Shown here piece by piece: positions 2,276-10,496 of a stretch of DNA of 10,496 nucleotides. The notes below the pieces were generated by a model. It was not told the origin of the DNA. It saw nothing but the letters and a program-made list of their open reading frames with translations, and ran no database searches. The DNA is from a candidate division WOR-3 bacterium. Its GTDB lineage: Bacteria > Hydrothermota > UBA3072. A program made the translations under genes and the position numbers. The DNA lies in contig JBDRZZ010000035.1 of the NCBI GenBank assembly GCA_039804165.1, positions 1 to 10,496 on the forward strand, read 5' to 3'. Position 1 is the stretch's first letter; each line of letters opens with the position of its first letter.

Positions 2276-2312
2276 TGTTCATTCAATTATAATTAGTGTT
2301 CATTATAATGAA
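2276..2312. promoter_or_regulatory. Probable operator of the MNT/HEPN pair
   Basis: TTCATTATAATGAA at 2299-2312 is a perfect 14-base palindrome, and AATTATAATT at 2285-2294 is a perfect 10-base one. TGTTCATT occurs at 2276-2283 and again at 2297-2304, exactly 21 bases or two helical turns apart. The larger palindrome covers the -10 element of the promoter. The gene that follows encodes a winged-helix domain, so autorepression by this protein is a reasonable inference. Confidence 0.6.
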
Positions 2313-2330
2313 TTATTATTTAAATGTCAA
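2302..2330 (-). promoter_or_regulatory. Consensus sigma70-type promoter for the MNT/HEPN pair
   Basis: On the minus strand TTGACA (2330-2325) is followed after exactly 17 bases by TATAAT (2307-2302). Both hexamers match the bacterial consensus fully. Transcription would begin near 2295, giving a leader of about 34 bases before the ATG at 2261. The promoter shows that the pair can be expressed independently of the cas operon. The -35 lies in GTCAATTTGAC (2326-2336), an inverted repeat around one base. Confidence 0.8.
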
Positions 2331-2409: not shown

Positions 2410-2461
2410 CAGAGTTGTCAAAGAACAAAAGGATGTTTCTTATATAAAACCCAATTTTCAC
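2410..2461 (-). repeat. Direct repeat copy within the cas5 3' end
   Basis: These bases encode the last residues of Cas5, its stop and eight bases beyond it. They recur about 1.2 kb to the left at 1204-1254 in the same orientation. The match is best over the final coding bases, the stop and the few bases just downstream (22 identical in a row), and I see no similarity beyond that on the downstream side. Together the two copies bracket the MNT/HEPN cassette. Confidence 0.75.
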
Positions 2462-3113
2462 CCCTGCGTTCTTCTATTAAAGGAAGGACAAAGGTTTTTT
2501 GAATATAAGGATTTCCTCTTTTGCCTTTGGCATATGGATTAACTTGAGAAAATTGTGCATCGTTTTTCAATTCATTTAGAGTAAACACTGGACGCTTTGC
2601 AAGATTTGCAACCTCTGGTTTCAGAGTTATCGTCTCTTTCCAGGTGAATTTGAATAATGGCTCTTTATCTTCAATCTGTGCTATTACAAAGGCGATTGAA
2701 TCAGTTGTTCCTAACCGCCTTAAGAGTCTAAAGAGTTTAGTGATTTCATCTTCCTTTTCTGAAATCTCAAGATAGACTTTCAGTGGTCCCAGAAAATGGC
2801 AATACTCTCTTAATCCAAAGGATTCTTCAAAACTTTTTCCTTTAGATTTTGAAGGTTTTAATCTCTTGATAAAAAATTTTAAAACTGCTAATTTCTCAGG
2901 TGGCTCTATTTCTAATGGTGCTGATTTAACTATCTCAAAGACCTCTTCACCATAAGACACTTTTCCTGTTGACTTTATGGCGGCATCTACCAATGCAAGT
3001 CTCAAAGCCGCAGGGCTTGGAATAGGAGAAGTTAAAGCATAACTCGGAGATAATTTTGGCATTCTATAAGAATAGAGACTTCCAAAATTGAGTTCTGCAA
3101 AAATCCATGCCAC
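2418..3113 (-). CDS. cas5: Cas5, type I-A-like Cascade subunit
   Basis: In type I effectors Cas5 caps the 5' handle of the crRNA and contacts Cas8 and the Cas7 backbone. This 231-residue protein has the Cas5 pattern PSPAALRLALVDAAI at 32-46, LRRLGTTDS at 131-139 in the middle, and a C-terminal strand ending in NWVLYKK (220-226). Length is typical for Cas5 of I-A or I-B type. The start is GTG at 3111-3113, placed by an AAGGAG five bases upstream that overlaps the stop of cas7; the nearby ATG at 3113-3115 is out of frame. It is the last gene of the cas operon, after cas8, cas11 and cas7. I see no strong terminator after it. A copy of its 3' end lies beyond the MNT/HEPN pair. Confidence 0.85.
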   Translation of the reverse strand: MAWIFAELNFGSLYSYRMPKLSPSYALTSPIPSPAALRLALVDAAIKSTGKVSYGEEVFEIVKSAPLEIEPPEKLAVLKFFIKRLKPSKSKGKSFEESFGLREYCHFLGPLKVYLEISEKEDEITKLFRLLRRLGTTDSIAFVIAQIEDKEPLFKFTWKETITLKPEVANLAKRPVFTLNELKNDAQFSQVNPYAKGKRGNPYIQKTFVLPLIEERRGENWVLYKKHPFVL

Positions 3114-3118
3114 ATTAG

Positions 3119-3124
3119 CTCCTT
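3119..3124 (-). promoter_or_regulatory. Ribosome binding site fixing the GTG start of cas5
   Basis: AAGGAG on the minus strand stands five bases before the GTG at 3113-3111 and overlaps the cas7 stop codon (3125-3123). This supports the GTG start and coupled translation of cas7 and cas5. Confidence 0.75.
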
Positions 3125-4058
3125 ATTTGGGCATAGTCAATTCATAAATAACTTTTGTTGTCAATCCGTCTAATATGGTACAAAGTTCTGTCAAATTGCT
3201 GAATTTCTCATTGGATAGCCCTTTTTGTCCTTTTACAAGATTCTCTGTCTGAGTAATATAGTCATCTTTTATAGGACTAATTATTGGAGCTGGAAAATTC
3301 GTTTCAGAGATAACCATTATTCCCTCTACTGCCTCTATGTGGGGGAGACGTGTAGAAGTCATTGCTCCATCCGTTCTTATAAATGTCGCTTTAAAAGCAT
3401 TAAGAGCTAACTGATATCTGCCCTGTCTTCTTTCACCATCTATTACATAATTGTAATCAATTTCATTTAGACCTATTCTCCATGGCTGGAAGATAGAAAC
3501 AATTGCATACACTCCTGAACGGGTTGGTCTGTGGTAAATCATTTGAGCAGTTACTTGCCTCTCCACAGTTTCTTCCTGTCCTGCCTCAAATTCTTCACGA
3601 GAGCGTCCTTCCATTGAATGCCTTGCATGAATATGAATATCTCTATGTGTTCTATCAGGAAGACCTAATGCCCATCCAAATTCAACTGTTGAAGGTCTTG
3701 CAATTGTTGGTCTTTGAACCAAAAAACCGTGAAGGTCACAAAGGGCACATAACTTTATAGCCTCACTCATAGCCTTTGCCTCATCCATTCTTTTACCGCT
3801 TACCAGAGGATTCATATCTGCTTTTTGTGGATGAAATTTTTGACATGCCTCGCAAAATTGACTTTTATCTTCCTGCAATAACCAAACATTATAAGCATGA
3901 ATATGTTTCAGCATTTCACCAGAAATTCCATCTGTCTTTTCACCACTTGCCAGAACAACTGTCCGAGGTTCTGTGACATTGCCAACCGTTCCTTCATTAT
4001 TAAGCGAATGGAGATTCCATGTTGCTCTACCCAATATTGCTATTTCAAAGATTGCCAT
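3123..4058 (-). CDS. cas7: Cas7 of the DevR/Csa2 family, type I-A-like Cascade backbone
   Basis: Cas7 forms the helical backbone that coats the crRNA spacer in type I effectors. This 311-residue protein shows the hallmarks of the DevR/Csa2 group: N-terminal RATWNLHSLNNEGTVGN at 11-27, then ISGEMLKHIH at 45-54, where the equivalent segment in homologues precedes the large insertion domain. The insertion holds two Cys pairs, C69/C72 and C104/C107, which could bind zinc. A later GRYQLALNAFKAT at 213-225 and the LPHIEAVEG strand complete the fold. It follows the Csa5-like gene after 14 bases and has a strong Shine-Dalgarno sequence. It is clearly different from the second Cas7-type protein at 7375-8115, so the operon codes for two backbone families. 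Confidence 0.92.
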   Translation of the reverse strand: MAIFEIAILGRATWNLHSLNNEGTVGNVTEPRTVVLASGEKTDGISGEMLKHIHAYNVWLLQEDKSQFCEACQKFHPQKADMNPLVSGKRMDEAKAMSEAIKLCALCDLHGFLVQRPTIARPSTVEFGWALGLPDRTHRDIHIHARHSMEGRSREEFEAGQEETVERQVTAQMIYHRPTRSGVYAIVSIFQPWRIGLNEIDYNYVIDGERRQGRYQLALNAFKATFIRTDGAMTSTRLPHIEAVEGIMVISETNFPAPIISPIKDDYITQTENLVKGQKGLSNEKFSNLTELCTILDGLTTKVIYELTMPK

Positions 4059-4064
4059 TTGATT

Positions 4065-4071
4065 CCTCCTC
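4065..4071 (-). promoter_or_regulatory. Strong ribosome binding site of cas7
   Basis: GAGGAGG stands six bases before the cas7 ATG (4058-4056), in the 14-base gap after the small-subunit gene. Strong initiation fits the need for several Cas7 copies per complex. Confidence 0.75.
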
Positions 4072-4072
4072 T

Positions 4073-4396
4073 TTATTCTTCTTTCATACCTCTAACAAGG
4101 GCATGGCTTATTAGGGCTGCCCTTACAAGTCTTACTCCGTAATCACTTACCAACTTCATAAGTTTTTCCAAATTCTCTTCTGTTGGTCTTTTTAAATGCA
4201 TTCGTCGAGCGTGTGTCTCATATCTACGCAAAAATTTACGTAATGCATCTGCAAAATCTTCTTCTTTTTCAGCATTTTCTAATTCAATAAGGGAAGCATA
4301 GTCCTGAATCTCTTCCATGCGTAAAGCCTTCCGTAATGTGCTGCCAAAGTCTTTTATAGCTTCATCAGAGTAAAGCATCGCTAAACTATCTGACAT
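4073..4396 (-). CDS. Csa5-like small subunit (Cas11) of a type I-A-like Cascade
   Basis: The 107-residue product is predicted from its sequence to be all helical, charged, with no Cys. The region YGVRLVRAALISHALVRG at 86-103 resembles the C-terminal helix of Csa5, the type I-A small subunit that lines the inner face of the Cascade complex. Its place between a Cas8-like gene and cas7 is the usual one for this subunit and is the main support. The ATG lies inside the end of the Cas8-like gene (11-base overlap), with a near-perfect ribosome binding site. The sequence is too short and divergent to be certain by eye. Confidence 0.65.
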   Translation of the reverse strand: MSDSLAMLYSDEAIKDFGSTLRKALRMEEIQDYASLIELENAEKEEDFADALRKFLRRYETHARRMHLKRPTEENLEKLMKLVSDYGVRLVRAALISHALVRGMKEE

Positions 4397-5462
4397 AGGC
4401 TACCACCTCCTTTAAGGTTTCATAGTCATATAAATTTGCAGACTTAATTTCTTTTGGTCTTGATATATATTTCAGAAAAATTTTTACATGTTTTTCATAA
4501 GTTTCTAAAGATGGATTCATTATGAATTCTGTTATTGCCTCAGCTAAATCCTCACATCCCTGAACGCTCCCTTTTCTAAATAGATAATTCCATACCTCAA
4601 AAACCTTTGAGATATTTGGTCTTCCAGAAAGGGCAAGCTCCATCAAAGGATAAATGCTTAAATTGCCACCTGTAGCCGGCTTGAACTGCTGCCCGCTTTG
4701 AACAATTGAGAAATAAAAGACTCCTGAAAATCTATCGCTGAATTGAGATTTTGATGCTGCCATCGCACGCATCTTCTCTGCAAGGACAACAGAAAAATGG
4801 GCAGCAGCATTCTGGATGCTAAAATATTTAAGACCAATAGTGTATATTGAGTTTCTTATTTCTCTGAAGTTATTAAGTTCAATTCTTTGAGGTACAGGAA
4901 AAATAACAAAATAGTCCCATTTATTCCCCTGAGACTTTTGAATTTTGTATCTTCCAGAAATAGCTCCACCAAGACAGGCAAGCGCCCAGTTATGGCTATC
5001 AACCTTAGTTTGGCCTTCTGAGTAATCTCCTCTTGTTCTTCCTCTGAGACCCTTAAAGGCTGATGGGTCAAGAGGACCAGAAAGCGTTTCACCTCTGTCA
5101 GAAGATATCACAGGTAAATTTGTAGGGTCTTGGAAATCATTGATAATCTTCTCCGCATCTTTGCTTAATATATCTTTTACCTTTTTGACTTTTTTTGACC
5201 AGTTCTGTTTATCAGTAAGAAATATCCGACTCCATGTCCTGTCATCAGGAGATTCTTCAAAAAGAGAATACCAGCCAGTGTTCTCGAGAAGCCTTTGGGC
5301 AGATACATCTGTTGCTTCATGCTCTATCAAATAAAAACTTCCTGCATCATTGATAACAGGTATCTCCCCTTCAGAGCTTGCATAATCCAGTAGCATTGCC
5401 AACCCGTAAGCCCTGCAAAGGTCAAAGATTTCAAGGCCGGTTTTGGGGATGAAGTGTAGCAT
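4386..5462 (-). CDS. Small Cas8-like large subunit, type I-A-like
   Basis: I assign this 358-residue protein as the Cas8-type large subunit mainly from position: it stands directly before the small subunit, Cas7 and Cas5. Features seen are an N-terminal helix GLEIFDLCRAYGLAMLLDYA at 9-28, a Gly/Arg-rich GLRGRTRGDYSEG at 138-150, then NWALACLGG at 158-166 and a helical C-terminal third. These recall the Cas8a1/Csx13-type proteins of compact I-A-like systems. Length is at the low end for Cas8, and I see no zinc-binding Cys pairs. Cas8 normally recognises the PAM and recruits Cas3; that role is inferred. The ATG is two bases after the stop of the HEPN gene and lacks a Shine-Dalgarno sequence, so translation probably depends on coupling. 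Confidence 0.65.
   Translation of the reverse strand: MLHFIPKTGLEIFDLCRAYGLAMLLDYASSEGEIPVINDAGSFYLIEHEATDVSAQRLLENTGWYSLFEESPDDRTWSRIFLTDKQNWSKKVKKVKDILSKDAEKIINDFQDPTNLPVISSDRGETLSGPLDPSAFKGLRGRTRGDYSEGQTKVDSHNWALACLGGAISGRYKIQKSQGNKWDYFVIFPVPQRIELNNFREIRNSIYTIGLKYFSIQNAAAHFSVVLAEKMRAMAASKSQFSDRFSGVFYFSIVQSGQQFKPATGGNLSIYPLMELALSGRPNISKVFEVWNYLFRKGSVQGCEDLAEAITEFIMNPSLETYEKHVKIFLKYISRPKEIKSANLYDYETLKEVVAYVR
4403..4412 (-). promoter_or_regulatory. Near-perfect ribosome binding site of the small-subunit gene
   Basis: AAGGAGGTGG lies within the last codons of the Cas8-like gene, six bases before the ATG at 4396-4394. It suggests high expression of the small subunit compared with Cas8, as expected from Cascade stoichiometry. 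Confidence 0.75.
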
Positions 5463-5464
5463 GT

Positions 5465-6352
5465 TTATGGATTATTTTTGTTTTTCAATAGTTCCTGTAA
5501 ATATCTTGCTGCTTGAAGGGTAGCGATAATAGCAGATCTTGCACAATCACAATCCTCGACCATTGTTTTTCTGCAGGCATCTTGCCATTGCGGAATTCTT
5601 GAATCAATTTCAGATCGATGAGCGTAAGCATTTCTTATCCATAAAACTATATACAAATTGGAAAGAATATACCATTCTATTCTACTTTTAGGACTGAGAT
5701 TTATAGGATTTTGAGTGTTTTCCAAAATAGTCTTTATTTCTCCAAGTTTTGGTCCCCAGTCTGAAGAACTACAATTCCTTCCAGATAATTCATGAAGATA
5801 TTGAGCAAATTTATCAGTCAATCGTCTGGATGCATTGCCACAATAAGAAATGGTCTCAGGAAACTCTTTATTTTTAAATCTTTCTATTGACTCTTTTGTG
5901 TCATTAATTATCTCATCAGTTAAATAGGATGAATCTAAAGATTGAATACCTTCAGTAAAATCAAAATGGGAAGGCGGTAATACTGAATCTATCCTCCTGA
6001 ATCTTTCTACCATCTCTTTATAAATTTCATTTGAAATGATAGTTTCATGGTAAACATTTAGTCGAGCAGAGAATTCTAAAATGCGTTTATAAATTGGCGA
6101 TTTTCTGTCTATAGTCTCTTCCAAATCTTCAGAAAATTCAGCTTCCATAGATTCATTTATTGAATTGATTTCTCGCCATATTTTGAAAATAACTAAGCCT
6201 CTTTCTATTAGAGGAGGCTCTGCATCATTACCCAATGTAACTCCAAGTTCCTTTGCCACGTCATTCATATATTCAAAAACTCTTTCTGCTTTAAGTGGTA
6301 AAGCGTCTATAAGTTCTTTAATTTTTACTATAGCTGATGAGAGGTCTTCCAT
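5465..6352 (-). CDS. Helical protein with C-terminal HEPN domain, embedded in the cas operon
   Basis: The 295-residue protein looks fully helical. Residues ~150-290 fit a HEPN domain: a helix NASRRLTDKFAQYLHEL at 173-189, then IEWYILSNLYIVLWIRNAYAH at 225-245 containing R240-x4-H245, the catalytic R-x4-6-H motif of HEPN RNases. Residues 1-140 match nothing I recognise and hold no CARF-type fold that I can see. HEPN RNases act in Csm6/Csx1, Cas13, RNase toxins and abortive infection proteins. The gene has 6 bases before it and 2 after it, between the RAMP gene and the Cas8-like gene, so it is an integral part of the operon. It could be an RNase effector triggered by target recognition, or a structural subunit of the complex; the motif favours RNase activity. 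Confidence 0.75.
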   Translation of the reverse strand: MEDLSSAIVKIKELIDALPLKAERVFEYMNDVAKELGVTLGNDAEPPLIERGLVIFKIWREINSINESMEAEFSEDLEETIDRKSPIYKRILEFSARLNVYHETIISNEIYKEMVERFRRIDSVLPPSHFDFTEGIQSLDSSYLTDEIINDTKESIERFKNKEFPETISYCGNASRRLTDKFAQYLHELSGRNCSSSDWGPKLGEIKTILENTQNPINLSPKSRIEWYILSNLYIVLWIRNAYAHRSEIDSRIPQWQDACRKTMVEDCDCARSAIIATLQAARYLQELLKNKNNP

Positions 6353-6358
6353 GTATTA

Positions 6359-7363
6359 TCAACCTTCAATTGAAAACCTTCCAAACCCTATATCTGCCCA
6401 TTCCCCTACTCCAAACAAACTACAAAGGGCTAACTGAGTTGGTAACGATTGATTACTATCTCCAAAATAACAGTCAAAATAACTACCTGCTTTTGCAACT
6501 AAACGATTTTTCTTTGTTGATTCTTCAAGTGAGTATCTACTGACATAATCAGGAATAATGTATGTTCTAATAGAATCAATGACTGTAGGTTCAACATTTA
6601 AATTTAAATTGAAGAATTCAGACAGTTCTTTACTTCTGTTTAAAAGCATTTTTGAAAATAATGCGGCAAATTGATTTTGATCCAGATCTATTGGTAAGCC
6701 ACTATTATTATGAAGCAGAAAGGGGGTTATGAAAGTAAGACGTTGTTTCTTTTCATATTGTCTAAATTCAGTGATCTTTTCATTTAATACATCTTTTACT
6801 TTTTTTATTGACATGTTCTTGATGGAAAATCTACCCATTGCAACATTCTTATATTTGCCAATTCCAAAATATAGTCCAATGACTTTAAATGCTGACTTTA
6901 CATCATCAATTATTTGTTCATCATTACATAAAACAATTTCGACAGAGAAATTACAGCCGTCTCTTATCTGCTCTATATTTACAATACCCCCCCCTGAAGA
7001 AGCTCTTGACTCTCTACTGATTGCTATTCTTGTTATTGCCCTGAATTGTGGTCTTTCAAATTGACCAAAAGATAATAATATTCCCCATTTCTCATTCCAT
7101 AAAAATTTTTTAACTATGCATTGAATTTCACATTTTGAATGAAACTCTATAATATCTGACTCTTTTTTCAAAGCCGAAAGAGTTCTTATATTATTGGCAG
7201 TACAATTTTTTATAATCAGATAATTTAATAATTCTCCCCTAATAGAACTACCTAATATATAAGGAGAACATTTTAAGAGATTCTTATATTTTTTTTCAGT
7301 TGAATGAAAAGGTGTGTCTAAGCAACAATCAAAATGGAGAATAATACCTTCTCTCTCGCTCAT
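6359..7363 (-). CDS. Double RAMP-fold Cas protein, Csx10/Cas6-like
   Basis: The 334-residue protein seems to contain two RRM-like RAMP domains. The first has GSSIRGEL at 38-45, the usual GSxxRG turn of RAMP proteins, then FRAITRIAISRESRASSGGG at 107-126, which matches the conserved strand-loop of Csx10 and Cas7 proteins, and a Gly-rich loop FGIGKYKNVAMGRF at 166-179. The second ends in FGVGEWADIGFGRF at 317-330, as in Cas6 C-termini. In type III-D systems Csx10 plays the Cas5 part. With no other Cas6 in view, crRNA processing is also possible. It follows the Csx7-type gene by 11 bases. The coding sequence runs through a G8 tract at 6988-6995, in frame here. Confidence 0.7.
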   Translation of the reverse strand: MSEREGIILHFDCCLDTPFHSTEKKYKNLLKCSPYILGSSIRGELLNYLIIKNCTANNIRTLSALKKESDIIEFHSKCEIQCIVKKFLWNEKWGILLSFGQFERPQFRAITRIAISRESRASSGGGIVNIEQIRDGCNFSVEIVLCNDEQIIDDVKSAFKVIGLYFGIGKYKNVAMGRFSIKNMSIKKVKDVLNEKITEFRQYEKKQRLTFITPFLLHNNSGLPIDLDQNQFAALFSKMLLNRSKELSEFFNLNLNVEPTVIDSIRTYIIPDYVSRYSLEESTKKNRLVAKAGSYFDCYFGDSNQSLPTQLALCSLFGVGEWADIGFGRFSIEG

Positions 7364-7374
7364 TGCCTTATGCC

Positions 7375-8115
7375 TTATCCTCGATATGATGTGAATGCGG
7401 AAAGGAACTCTTCGGATTTATTGGTAACATCGGTATCTTCCCATTTGCTATCCTTTAGTTCTTTCTTTTTTATAGAAATAATTGTCGTCTCAATTTCACC
7501 GTAGCCAGCACTTTTCTTAGCGCCAAGTCCTAACATCTCTAATGATTTGATAGATAAAAGGACTGCTCCTATCTGCCATGGTTCCGGGTTTATGATTCTA
7601 ATAGTTCCTGTAAATTTAGCACCTGCATCCACTGTTTGAACTTGCATAAGCTTTCCGCCCGCTGCTGCCTTGTTGTCTCTTGTAATAGCTACATGGGTTC
7701 TATCAGTAAGAGTTGGCTCCCCAGTTGGCTTAGCATCCATGAACATAGCCCTTGCGGCAAGATCCGCAGCACCAAAAATTTGACAAACAGAACATGGGTT
7801 TTTACTTCTCGGTTCACAGGGAGCAATCCTACCAATACTTCTAGCATATTCTTCAGGATTTCTTGAAAAGTCTTTTGGTATAGCACTTAATGGAACACAG
7901 ACCCTTTCTCCTCTTTCAGTAAGAATTGATTCTAAAGTACTCCTAATCGCTCCTTTTAAAGAAGAACCTGGTATGACGGGTTTTCCTCCTACCATAGTTA
8001 CGACCTGGTCAATAGCTTTAAAAGCTGGCTCTCGACCAGCTAATATTGACAATGAACTTTTCGTAGTATATTCAACTTCGATTTCGTAAATTTCTTTTAA
8101 TTTTTCAAAAGCCAT
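7375..8115 (-). CDS. csx7: Csm3/Csx7-family Cas7 (type III-like RAMP backbone)
   Basis: This 246-residue protein has the full set of type III Cas7 marks. GKPVIPGSSLKGAIRS at 44-59 is the classic RAMP turn. D36 in FKAIDQVV lies where Csm3/Cmr4 proteins carry the Asp that cuts target RNA at 6-base intervals. C100, C108 and C111 (CSVCQIFGA), perhaps with C73, suggest a zinc site. TDRTHVAITRDNKAAAGGKL at 137-156 and the Gly-rich GLGAKKSAGYGEI at 196-208 complete the family pattern. It best resembles the Csx7 (SSO1426) group. A strong ribosome binding site overlaps the stop of the Cas10-like gene. It probably forms the crRNA-coating backbone of the type III-like module; RNA cleavage is inferred from D36. 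Confidence 0.88.
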   Translation of the reverse strand: MAFEKLKEIYEIEVEYTTKSSLSILAGREPAFKAIDQVVTMVGGKPVIPGSSLKGAIRSTLESILTERGERVCVPLSAIPKDFSRNPEEYARSIGRIAPCEPRSKNPCSVCQIFGAADLAARAMFMDAKPTGEPTLTDRTHVAITRDNKAAAGGKLMQVQTVDAGAKFTGTIRIINPEPWQIGAVLLSIKSLEMLGLGAKKSAGYGEIETTIISIKKKELKDSKWEDTDVTNKSEEFLSAFTSYRG

Positions 8116-8120
8116 TTTAT

Positions 8121-8126
8121 CCTCCT
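8121..8126 (-). promoter_or_regulatory. Strong ribosome binding site of the Csx7-type gene
   Basis: AGGAGG stands five bases before the ATG (8115-8113) and overlaps the TAG stop of the Cas10-like gene. It links translation of the two genes and suggests that the backbone protein is made in excess. Confidence 0.75.
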
Positions 8127-10065
8127 ATCTTTTAGAAAGATTTGCAATATATTTAAGAAAAACCGCCCTTTTTTCACGATCTGAATATTCACTATTTGTT
8201 GGTTCTAATTGTTGTAATGAGTTCTTGAGTTCATTTTCAATGCCTCTGAGATGATCTTTCCTTACATCAATTTCCAATAAAAGTTCATCTAATGTCGTCT
8301 CCATAGCAACTTGACTTACATTATGTATCTGTGTTGGCCAAACCTTGCGATTTCTTGCCAAATCAGCCAATCTTCTAATATCCTTTACTTCTTTTGCAGT
8401 AAACACTATAACCACCTCCTTAGAAACATCAAAAAAAATATCTTTCTCATAATGCTTCAGAGCACCTTCTATCAAAGACCAGAAAGGAGTTTTTGCATCA
8501 CATATTATTACTTTTATACCCATTTCTAATTGCATCTTTAATCTTTCAGAGTTCAGAATTCCAATAAACCCCCAAACCTTATCTTCTCTAAATAGGAAAA
8601 CTTTCAAATTAGGGAAAATAAACAATGTGTTAGCTGAAATCTCGTCCTTCTTAACCTTCATTTTGTTAATCTCATCCTTCAAGGTTTCATCAAATCTCTG
8701 CAAATCCAGAAGCATCTGGAGATATTCATACATTCCAGTTTGAGTTGCATTTATCTTTTGTTGGAGACCAATCCTTTCATAAAATCGAGGTAATAAAATA
8801 TTGTCTGCTACATCTTTTGCATGTTGCAATAAATTATCAGGAAATGTTATAAAAACAAAGGCAATTCTTTCTTCACCTTCTTCGGACTGCGAAACTTTAT
8901 CAAAGTCAATACCAGATGTAATGTTTCTTAATGTTAAACAATCTTCACATATTAAATTATTTTTTTCATCGGGTCTTAAAAAACTTTCATCATATGGTAT
9001 CTGACACATTTCACACCGTACTAAAGAATTGTAATTAAATGAAAACAAATTCTTAGAAAATAAAGTTTCCTTAAGTCGAGATGGTGTATTTATTAAATTG
9101 ATTTTAGTGGGTACATTAGGTCCCCATTCGATTTCTAATTCAAAGTCGTAATGTTCGACATCAATATATCTTATCCCTTTTATATTTGAAAAAGATGATA
9201 TCAATTCCTTTTTAAATATTTCGTAATTATCAAATATGTAAACCATGGAATCTTCAGAATAAAATACAAAAGGGTTGTAAATAGGGTCAATGTCTTGCAG
9301 GTCATTTGCAAACTTTGAATAGATTTGCCTAAAAATAGTTCTGTTTAAAATTTGGCTAAGTTTTTGGCAGATAATCACATCACGTAATCTATAAAAAATG
9401 TCTATAAAATTTGGTTGCACTCTAATTATGGAAAATTTAAATTCTTTAAATTCTGAAAAATGGCTAAGTTCTTTAAGTTTGCTAATTATCAAATAATAAA
9501 TAATTGCTGTAAATTGGTGGTGAACCGCCAATGAAAGATGAGGGATATAGGATGTGTGTGGGAAATTTATCATTTCTTTCTGCATTTCAAGAAGGTCTTT
9601 AACATTTATATTTTTTGTAAGATAGTTGTAAATCTTTCTGAATACTGTAATCATATGATCAGTATCCCAGTCATAAGGGAATCCCCAAAAAGAGTAAAAC
9701 CTCTGTGGGTCCTGACTCCTTCTTTGGGTTAATTCTTGATCATTTTCAAGGTCAAAAGGGTAGCCTTGTATTGTTTTACTAATTCTATCAGCTAAATACA
9801 TTGCGACTCCTTCTAATCCTGCCTCAACCTTTCTTTTGTGTAAAGTTAAAACATCTGAAGGGAGCTTTACTGGTGGCAATGCGAATTTTTTACCGAATAA
9901 CTCTAAATAGTCTTGCAAATTCTCATGTGAAGTACTTTTACCTTCCTTACTTAAGTCACGCATTATTTCAGTTCTGAATTCAAGCAGTTTTCCAATGTCA
10001 TGAATCATTGAAGAAATGAAACCATTCCATATTTTTGCAGTATCTTTATTTGACATGTTTCTCAT
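8125..10065 (-). CDS. cas10: Cas10-like large subunit: intact HD domain, inactive palm
   Basis: The 646-residue protein follows the Cas10 domain order. The N-terminal HD domain has H22-D23 in HDIGK, H47, H76 and A92-D93. PHLSLAVHHQFTA at 175-187 matches the conserved segment after HD in Cas10 and Cas10d. RVQPNFIDIFYRLRD at 215-229 aligns with the first palm signature, normally GDxxGIQxF, and is degenerate. A zinc ribbon C351/C354-C373/C376 lies between the two palms. The second palm starts at IAFVFITFPDNL (401-412), and KVIICDAKTPFW at 518-529 stands where GGDD would be. Without GGDD no cyclic oligoadenylate should be made, while the HD nuclease looks intact. This pattern recalls III-F-type Cas10 or type I-D Cas10d, but neighbours do not match I-D. 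The start overlaps the end of the cas3'' frame by 20 bases; M4 is an alternative start. Confidence 0.8.
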   Translation of the reverse strand: MRNMSNKDTAKIWNGFISSMIHDIGKLLEFRTEIMRDLSKEGKSTSHENLQDYLELFGKKFALPPVKLPSDVLTLHKRKVEAGLEGVAMYLADRISKTIQGYPFDLENDQELTQRRSQDPQRFYSFWGFPYDWDTDHMITVFRKIYNYLTKNINVKDLLEMQKEMINFPHTSYIPHLSLAVHHQFTAIIYYLIISKLKELSHFSEFKEFKFSIIRVQPNFIDIFYRLRDVIICQKLSQILNRTIFRQIYSKFANDLQDIDPIYNPFVFYSEDSMVYIFDNYEIFKKELISSFSNIKGIRYIDVEHYDFELEIEWGPNVPTKINLINTPSRLKETLFSKNLFSFNYNSLVRCEMCQIPYDESFLRPDEKNNLICEDCLTLRNITSGIDFDKVSQSEEGEERIAFVFITFPDNLLQHAKDVADNILLPRFYERIGLQQKINATQTGMYEYLQMLLDLQRFDETLKDEINKMKVKKDEISANTLFIFPNLKVFLFREDKVWGFIGILNSERLKMQLEMGIKVIICDAKTPFWSLIEGALKHYEKDIFFDVSKEVVIVFTAKEVKDIRRLADLARNRKVWPTQIHNVSQVAMETTLDELLLEIDVRKDHLRGIENELKNSLQQLEPTNSEYSDREKRAVFLKYIANLSKR

Positions 10066-10496
10066 CTGATGTTTTCAGTAAATTCTCTTCCACTGCTCTT
10101 CTATCTGCCAATCTTAATGCCCTCGACAGAATGACATAGAGATTGTAACACTTTTCTTTTTCAAAGGCTGGGAAGTGATCAGAGAGAGTTGTTGGGGAAT
10201 CTTGAACTTCAAAGTTCTTCACATATTTCAAATCAAATTTTATCCCTAATTCAGAAAGCAATTTATCAACCTCATCAAACCATCCATCACAAAGTCTATA
10301 TTCAGGGACCTTTGTGGCTCTGACTGAATGGTGGTGGGCTATAGCAAAGAAAGCAGCATCTCCCATAATATTACCCCATTCCTTTCTGAGATAATCTCTT
10401 AAAATATAAGCAGAAATAGGTGCATGGGGTGGGAGTTTAACTTTTTTCTAATTTTTCTGAATGGGCAAGGAATTCATCTTTGGCACCGATCTTTTT
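10046..10496 (-). CDS. cas3'': Cas3'' HD nuclease, 5' end outside window, apparent frameshift
   Basis: Two overlapping frames together read as one HD domain. The first (10496-10437) gives KKIGAKDEFLAHSEKLEKS and then a TAA; it begins where LHDIGK would be expected just beyond the window. The second (10447-10046) continues with KLPPHAPISAYIL, then AIAHHHSVRA and, 62 residues after its HHH, SRALRLADRRA, which are the later HD motifs of Cas3''. Joining them needs removal of one base in an A6 run at 10442-10447. An ATG at 10366 opens a 106-residue reading frame, but it would cut the HD fold in half. Cas3'' cuts DNA for type I-A interference together with a separate helicase Cas3', which is not in view. 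It may be a sequencing error, a true pseudogene or slippage. Confidence 0.75.
10437..10450 (-). other. Frameshift point in cas3'' at an A6 tract
   Basis: On the minus strand the sequence GAAAAAAGTTAA closes the upstream frame (AGT TAA). The HD continuation is in the frame that reads GTT AAA CTC, with its own TAG just before. The two frames overlap only over this run, so a change of one base in the A6 tract is the simplest way to join them. Confidence 0.65.

Follow-up and report, generated by a model that had tools for sequence, protein, structure and literature searches.

On contig JBDRZZ010000035.1 of a candidate division WOR-3 bacterium (assembly GCA_039804165.1) we found a type III-like cassette of four genes lying within a type I-A CRISPR operon, between cas3 and cas8a. 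The window, i.e. the stretch of DNA that was analysed, is this whole 10,496-bp contig; it belongs to a draft metagenome-assembled genome (MAG; 1.96 Mb in 49 contigs) from WOR-3, which is now named Caldifarciminota. We lean slightly towards reading the locus as a I-A operon into which the compact cassette was inserted at the cas3/cas8a junction, such that two effectors would draw on one pool of CRISPR RNAs (crRNAs). Judged from its sequence, the most fitting description of the cassette is that of an unclassified module, related to III-D and without cyclase, which matches no profiled subtype. The operon consists of the following features:

10046..10496, minus strand: 3' part of cas3 (helicase-HD fusion); 65% identity to the Cas3 of locus L011; L031 and L079 have the full-length fusion in this position
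8125..10065, minus strand: large HD protein of 646 amino acids (aa), putative cyclase-dead Cas10-like large subunit, from motifs and position
7375..8115, minus strand: Csx7/Csm3-type Cas7 backbone subunit of 246 aa with conserved Asp36; TIGR02581 above cut-off
6359..7363, minus strand: Csx10-like double-RAMP protein of 334 aa (III-D-kind Cas5) with a Cas6-like C-terminal half; Cas5_IIId
5465..6352, minus strand: all-helical protein of 295 aa with one RNAYAH, candidate HEPN-like RNase or small-subunit replacement
4386..5462, minus strand: cas8a, type I-A large subunit; PDLC01513, 1.8e-40
4073..4396, minus strand: cas11a (Csa5), small subunit; PDLC01488, 1.5e-38
3123..4058, minus strand: cas7 (DevR/Csa2), I-A backbone subunit; PF01905, 7.3e-57
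2418..3113, minus strand: cas5a; PDLC01390, 9.2e-30

These nine co-directional open reading frames (ORFs) are separated by 2-14 bases or overlap shortly. They run in the order cas3 end, four-gene cassette, cas8a-cas11a-cas7-cas5, with the cassette and I-A blocks joined by gaps of 2-11 bases. The ORF map is in agreement with a preliminary description of this DNA, in which nine same-strand genes with gaps of at most 14 bases or small overlaps were reported. Profile searches recovered the Csx7-type Cas7, RAMP, Cas8, Csa5-like, DevR-type Cas7 and Cas5 identities given there. As to gene content and contiguity, the central claim of that description holds: one operon does unite a complete I-A Cascade with a type III-like block that is cyclase-less.

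The I-A effector operon is complete, with cas8a, cas11a, cas7 and cas5 all recognised by profiles. The four genes are 82, 85, 77 and 73% identical, respectively, to the copy in a Syntrophaceae genome, where another insert is found. From cas3 only the C-terminal HD part is present, with an intact downstream ORF (10046-10366), while the remainder lies beyond the contig end. The encoded part matches residues 615-737 of the L011 Cas3 (745 aa) with 65% identity, and the relatives carry a single Cas3 of 743-757 aa, helicase first and HD last, directly upstream. Comparison with the full-length Cas3 proteins of L011, L031 and L079 thus shows that the gene is not a stand-alone Cas3'' HD nuclease, as had been proposed, but encodes the C-terminal HD domain of a helicase-HD Cas3. 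Two HD domains are indeed present in the operon as described earlier, one of which belongs to a normal Cas3. With a complete and conserved I-A set, Cascade and Cas3 should be functional on their own. Cas1 was not found in the genome.

We next consider the cas3/cas8a junction in related loci. Scanning 84,980 species genomes with the Cas7 pair yielded 25 loci from bacterial and archaeal MAGs. The window proteins and III-C proteins were mapped onto these loci, and the junction was readable in 22 of them, including the window and L081. At 16 of the 22 junctions cas3 directly adjoins cas8a. Besides type III inserts, the junctions that were not closed comprise a gap of ~670 bases in L018, a cas3 placed downstream on the other strand in L022, and L011, where only a sigma-like gene intervenes. 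An IS-like ORF follows cas3 in L015, where the contigs break.

Two relatives carry a type III-C module at the same place. In the Syntrophaceae locus (L079/L010, contig of 119.7 kb) the order is cas6, WYL regulator, cas3, sigma-like gene, III-C module, cas8a-cas11a-cas7-cas5. Its III-C module is complete (cmr1, cmr6, cas10c, cmr4, cmr5, cmr3), with a large subunit lacking GGDD. The Saccharicenans locus (L050/L012, contig of 551.8 kb) has the same order without the sigma gene and is followed by an array of 43 repeats. Here, too, the module is complete and lacks GGDD. These III-C inserts carry their own Cmr5. A cas6 gene is located upstream of cas3 in L079, L050, L013 and L014. The nearest loci are bacterial except for L011 (MTND01000035.1, 'Archaeoglobi' JdFR-42); this contig was probably mis-binned in an archaeal MAG, given its bacterial sigma-like gene and a I-A locus closest to bacterial ones.

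The sigma-70-like genes right after cas3 inside the I-A operon (L079:4665-5423 and L011:3422-4195) deserve separate mention. The pair is 52% identical, and regions 2 and 4 of the L011 copy are recognised by Pfam. A sigma gene within a CRISPR operon is unusual.

The preliminary description had considered that the two blocks might occur mostly apart in relatives and meet here by chance. This was found in part: the majority of I-A relatives are without a type III block, and the exact cassette was not found anywhere else. However, III-C modules occupy the identical junction in two of the nearest relatives, and this speaks against a single accidental encounter.

From a tree of the four I-A proteins we obtained a fully supported group of the window, L010 and L011. 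A second group contained L012, L015, L013 and L014 (support 83), and the split from all other loci had a support of 100. Within the second group the junctions of L013 and L014 are closed. The III-C modules of L010 and L012 share 27-42% identity, compared to 62-69% for their I-A genes. A common origin of both modules, evaluated together with six more III-C modules of the Saccharicenans class, was rejected by the approximately unbiased (AU) test with p 0.036, a modest result given long branches and few taxa. III-C modules are also present on their own. Within the Saccharicenans class, six genomes carry Csx11; in one of the six it lies at the I-A locus, and another has both on different contigs. 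The III-C block of L079 is compositionally foreign to its I-A flanks: its GC content is 57.6% (third-position GC 0.63-0.71), against 42-46% (0.40-0.43) for cas3, cas8a, cas7 and cas5 and 43.8% for the I-A part. The much larger divergence of the III-C modules than of the I-A genes, together with this sharp GC contrast, is indicative of a recurrent insertion site. The simplest reading of these sequences is that at least two, probably three, separate arrivals took place at one junction. In an extended form, the junction would be a docking slot that took up cyclase-dead type III modules at least three times, including the unclassified cassette, and thereby provides dual DNA and RNA interference from one operon and one crRNA pool. 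We put this forward tentatively, as a possibility that we rate slightly below even.

The identity of the cassette proteins was assessed individually. For the 646-aa protein we found HDIGK at residue 22, ADR at residue 92 and CxxC pairs at 351 and 373, while GGDD is absent. HDIGK, ADR and the zinc-ribbon-like CxxC pair follow in the same order as in Cas10. The N-terminal 140 residues can be aligned to the HD region of a III-C Cas10 with a Z-score of 5.0 (1 of 1000 shuffles as high); outside the HD region there is no significant similarity to Csx11. By position and motifs it may plausibly be called Cas10-like. Of the inactive HD-Cas10-like protein described previously, the HD motifs and the missing GGDD are observed, while the Cas10 identity is unproven and without profile recognition. 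The idea that GGDD was turned into REDK arose from inspection by eye and was dropped, having no statistical support. Because current profiles miss the large subunit, such a cassette may be overlooked in surveys.

The 246-aa Cas7 scored 122.5 bits with TIGR02581 (cut-off 108) and 6.6e-38 with the Csm3 profile, with weaker matches to the PADLOC profiles Cas7_IIIf (2.4e-15) and Cas7_IIIg (6.5e-12). Its best PDB match is the type III-D Cas7 of 8bmw (5.9e-18). It also matches the Cas7 of entries 21bh/8yhd (3.9e-13), which we take to be type VII. When III-D and Cmr4 proteins are aligned to it, Asp36 is the same in all. The equivalent Asp is the residue required for RNA cleavage in type III complexes (PMC11026444).

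For the 334-aa protein matches were obtained to Cas5_IIId (2e-9), PF03787 (2.9e-5) and PF10040 (9.3e-4), and to TIGR02674 with 4.8e-7, yet at 29.3 bits compared to a cut-off of 177. Against cyanobacterial Csx10 the Z-score was 5.8, with none of 500 shuffles as high. The 295-aa protein had no convincing match among the library profiles, and Pfam shows no HEPN domain in it. It is predicted, at low confidence, to be all-helical. The AlphaFold models in this analysis, which were built without homologues, had mean pLDDT (predicted local distance difference test) values of 35.6 and 40.8 and were useless. A tetratricopeptide match turned out to be a repeat artefact made up of many weak single-domain scores of ~3 bits. 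In the cyanobacterial III-D locus L085 the gene order is cas10-cas7-csx10-small protein, such that the 295-aa gene occupies the expected small-subunit position. For the HEPN assignment made previously, a single RNAYAH motif is present. Shuffled sequences contain its general form (Rx4-6H) in 56% of cases and a stricter one in 8%, i.e. at chance level, and with no Pfam match HEPN is a plausible but unproven assignment. As a whole the cassette has a small gene set with HD kept and palm motif lost, and no adaptation genes are nearby.

A number of observations weigh against an inserted type III-like effector operating beside Cascade. The 646-aa protein has no match in Pfam, NCBIfam, PADLOC or the PDB, and a palm-domain profile scored no better on it than on shuffles. 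No small subunit of the type III kind was recognised in the cassette. The cassette as a whole was found in no other genome searched: no homologue of the 646-aa protein turned up in 150 relatives, in 142 Saccharicenans-class and 23 Syntrophaceae-class genomes, or in plasmids and viral contigs, none of the 295-aa protein in 16 genomes and viral contigs, and none of the Csx10-like protein in viral contigs. Csx7 gave a single match (30%), to another genome of the phylum; a weak Cas8a match in L008 was spurious and corresponds to a glycosyltransferase gene. The window cas3 contains one frameshift, in an A6 run at 10442-10447 near the contig end. Finally, no CRISPR array was present in the window or in 274 kb sampled from the genome.

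The missing profile and PDB matches to Cas10 and the palm-2 profile result would be expected if the HD protein were an unrelated HD nuclease rather than a Cas10, leaving a minimal Cas7-Cas5 unit for RNA targeting that in principle resembles type VII. The Csx7 match to 21bh/8yhd points in the same direction. We nevertheless consider this explanation improbable, since the three motifs stand in Cas10 order, the N-terminal 140 residues align to III-C Cas10, and the gene order is that of L085.

About as improbable is a passenger, i.e. a type III fragment that landed by recombination between Cas loci and is now decaying or leaving without a joint function. Its absence from all searched relatives and the cas3 frameshift agree with such a fate, as does the composition of the large-protein and Csx10-like genes (31% GC each, compared to 36-39% for the window I-A genes). 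On the other hand, all four cassette ORFs are intact and tightly spaced in the operon, the catalytic Asp of Cas7 is retained, and type III modules sit at the exact site in two further lineages.

An assembly chimera or a mis-binned contig could be suspected from the shortness of the contig and the frameshift at its end. This is very unlikely: the cas3 end and cas8a flanking the cassette belong to one I-A lineage, and the same architecture is present on the two much longer contigs named above. Tetranucleotide usage correlates with that of other contigs of the genome (r 0.93-0.965), and this match in composition makes mis-binning unlikely.

Whether two complexes or one mixed complex are formed had been left open in the preliminary description. 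In one mixed or subunit-sharing machine, the cassette would borrow Cas11a or decorate Cascade. The window Cas11a also matches the III-B Cas11 profile (4.2e-7), the cassette has no recognised Cas11 of its own, unlike the III-C inserts with their Cmr5, and only a few bases link the blocks. However, Cascade is complete without the cassette, its subunits being 73-85% identical to those of a relative with another insert. Moreover, Cas7 and Cas5 are duplicated rather than shared, and Cas11a is conserved also in insert-free loci. We therefore regard a mixed machine as rather unlikely; two complexes are favoured by the full I-A subunit set and by the fact that the cassette has a Cas7 and a Cas5 of its own.

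For the favoured reading, two effectors on one crRNA pool, we infer every step beyond gene content from sequence. One transcript would give rise to two complexes that share one crRNA pool made by one Cas6. Cascade would locate double-stranded DNA and recruit Cas3 for shredding. Because the cassette has its own backbone and cap, it most likely forms a second complex on the same crRNAs, consisting of the HD large subunit, a Csx7 filament and the Csx10-like cap. This complex would bind matching transcripts and cut the RNA via Asp36 of Csx7, while the HD domain of the large subunit may cut single-stranded DNA. The 295-aa helical protein could replace the small subunit or serve the complex as an RNase. 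The absence of GGDD speaks against signalling by the cassette, such that no cyclic oligoadenylate would be made. The insertion would probably provide a means of RNA targeting against phages that evade DNA targeting or are faster than it.

In L012 only one array lies next to the combined locus, which points towards shared crRNAs. According to PMC4041471, one Cas6 may serve several complexes, and in Sulfolobus islandicus, for which it cites other work, one Cas6 serves a I-A and two III-B complexes. In the WOR-3 genome, Cas6 could be supplied by a second locus (L072; G000:C11, 1-13000). It contains cas6, genes for a DUF7309/DUF6930 protein and a 311-aa protein, cas3', cas3'' and III-B genes (Cmr1, GGDD Cas10, Cmr3, CARF-RelE, Cmr4, Cmr5); no Cas8 was recognised there. 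Unlike in the window, the type III part of this locus is not nested between cas3 and cas8, and GGDD is intact in its Cas10. The locus is predicted to signal by cyclic nucleotides, independently of the cassette.

The profile comparison supported the earlier view that no named subtype accommodates the type III part. With type I-A the window shares all effector genes in the order of the relatives; it differs in the cassette between cas3 and cas8a, in its bacterial host and in the lack of a detectable Cas1 in the genome. With type III-C it has in common an HD large subunit without GGDD, as well as the junction at which III-C modules occur in the two relatives. Yet the cassette lacks Cmr1, Cmr6 and Cmr5 and uses a Csx7-type Cas7: TIGR02682, Cmr1 and Cmr5 gave no match in it, whereas the III-C gene set is present in L010 and L012. 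Type III-D proteins are the closest relatives of the cassette Cas7 and Cas5, and the order cas10-cas7-csx10-small protein is shared. Type III-D systems usually have an active cyclase and several Cas7s. In contrast, the cassette has one Cas7 only, no Csx19, TIGR03986 protein or CARF gene, and a large subunit in which HD is present and GGDD missing, opposite to the pattern in most III-D Cas10s. On the cyanobacterial plasmids that carry L092-L094, a 537-569 aa GGDD protein annotated as hypothetical lies just before the RAMP genes of III-D-like loci, and L093 and L094 are followed by a cas3 helicase.

In archaeal co-located type I/III loci the two parts are adjacent, as in the window. Co-location as such is known, e.g. 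from Pyrococcus furiosus, where a III-B block lies beside a type I-G block. No title or abstract in the literature searched, which leaves many journals uncovered, describes a type III system nested inside a I-A operon, and we know of no description of nesting at a fixed junction with module exchange.

Downstream of the operon an exact 23-nt direct repeat, CAGAGTTGTCAAAGAACAAAAGG, occurs at 1204-1226 and 2410-2432, on either side of an MNT-HEPN toxin-antitoxin-like pair (1270-2261). The arrangement, in which one copy reaches into the 3' end of cas5, looks as though the pair was inserted behind the operon. No further copy of the repeat was present in 274 kb from other contigs. A perfect sigma-70 consensus promoter (TTGACA-17-TATAAT; 2302-2330, minus strand) lies just upstream of the pair.

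Type I and type III systems often coexist and can share guides, yet they are regarded as distinct modules. In the loci described here, type III modules that lack the cyclase motif lie within a I-A operon at one fixed place, and different modules occupy the same slot in three genomes (WOR-3, Syntrophaceae and Saccharicenans). That insertion recurred suggests selection for co-expression with the I-A genes. It can be tested whether type III systems that lack cyclic-nucleotide signalling may persist as RNA-cutting helpers of a DNA-cutting Cascade.

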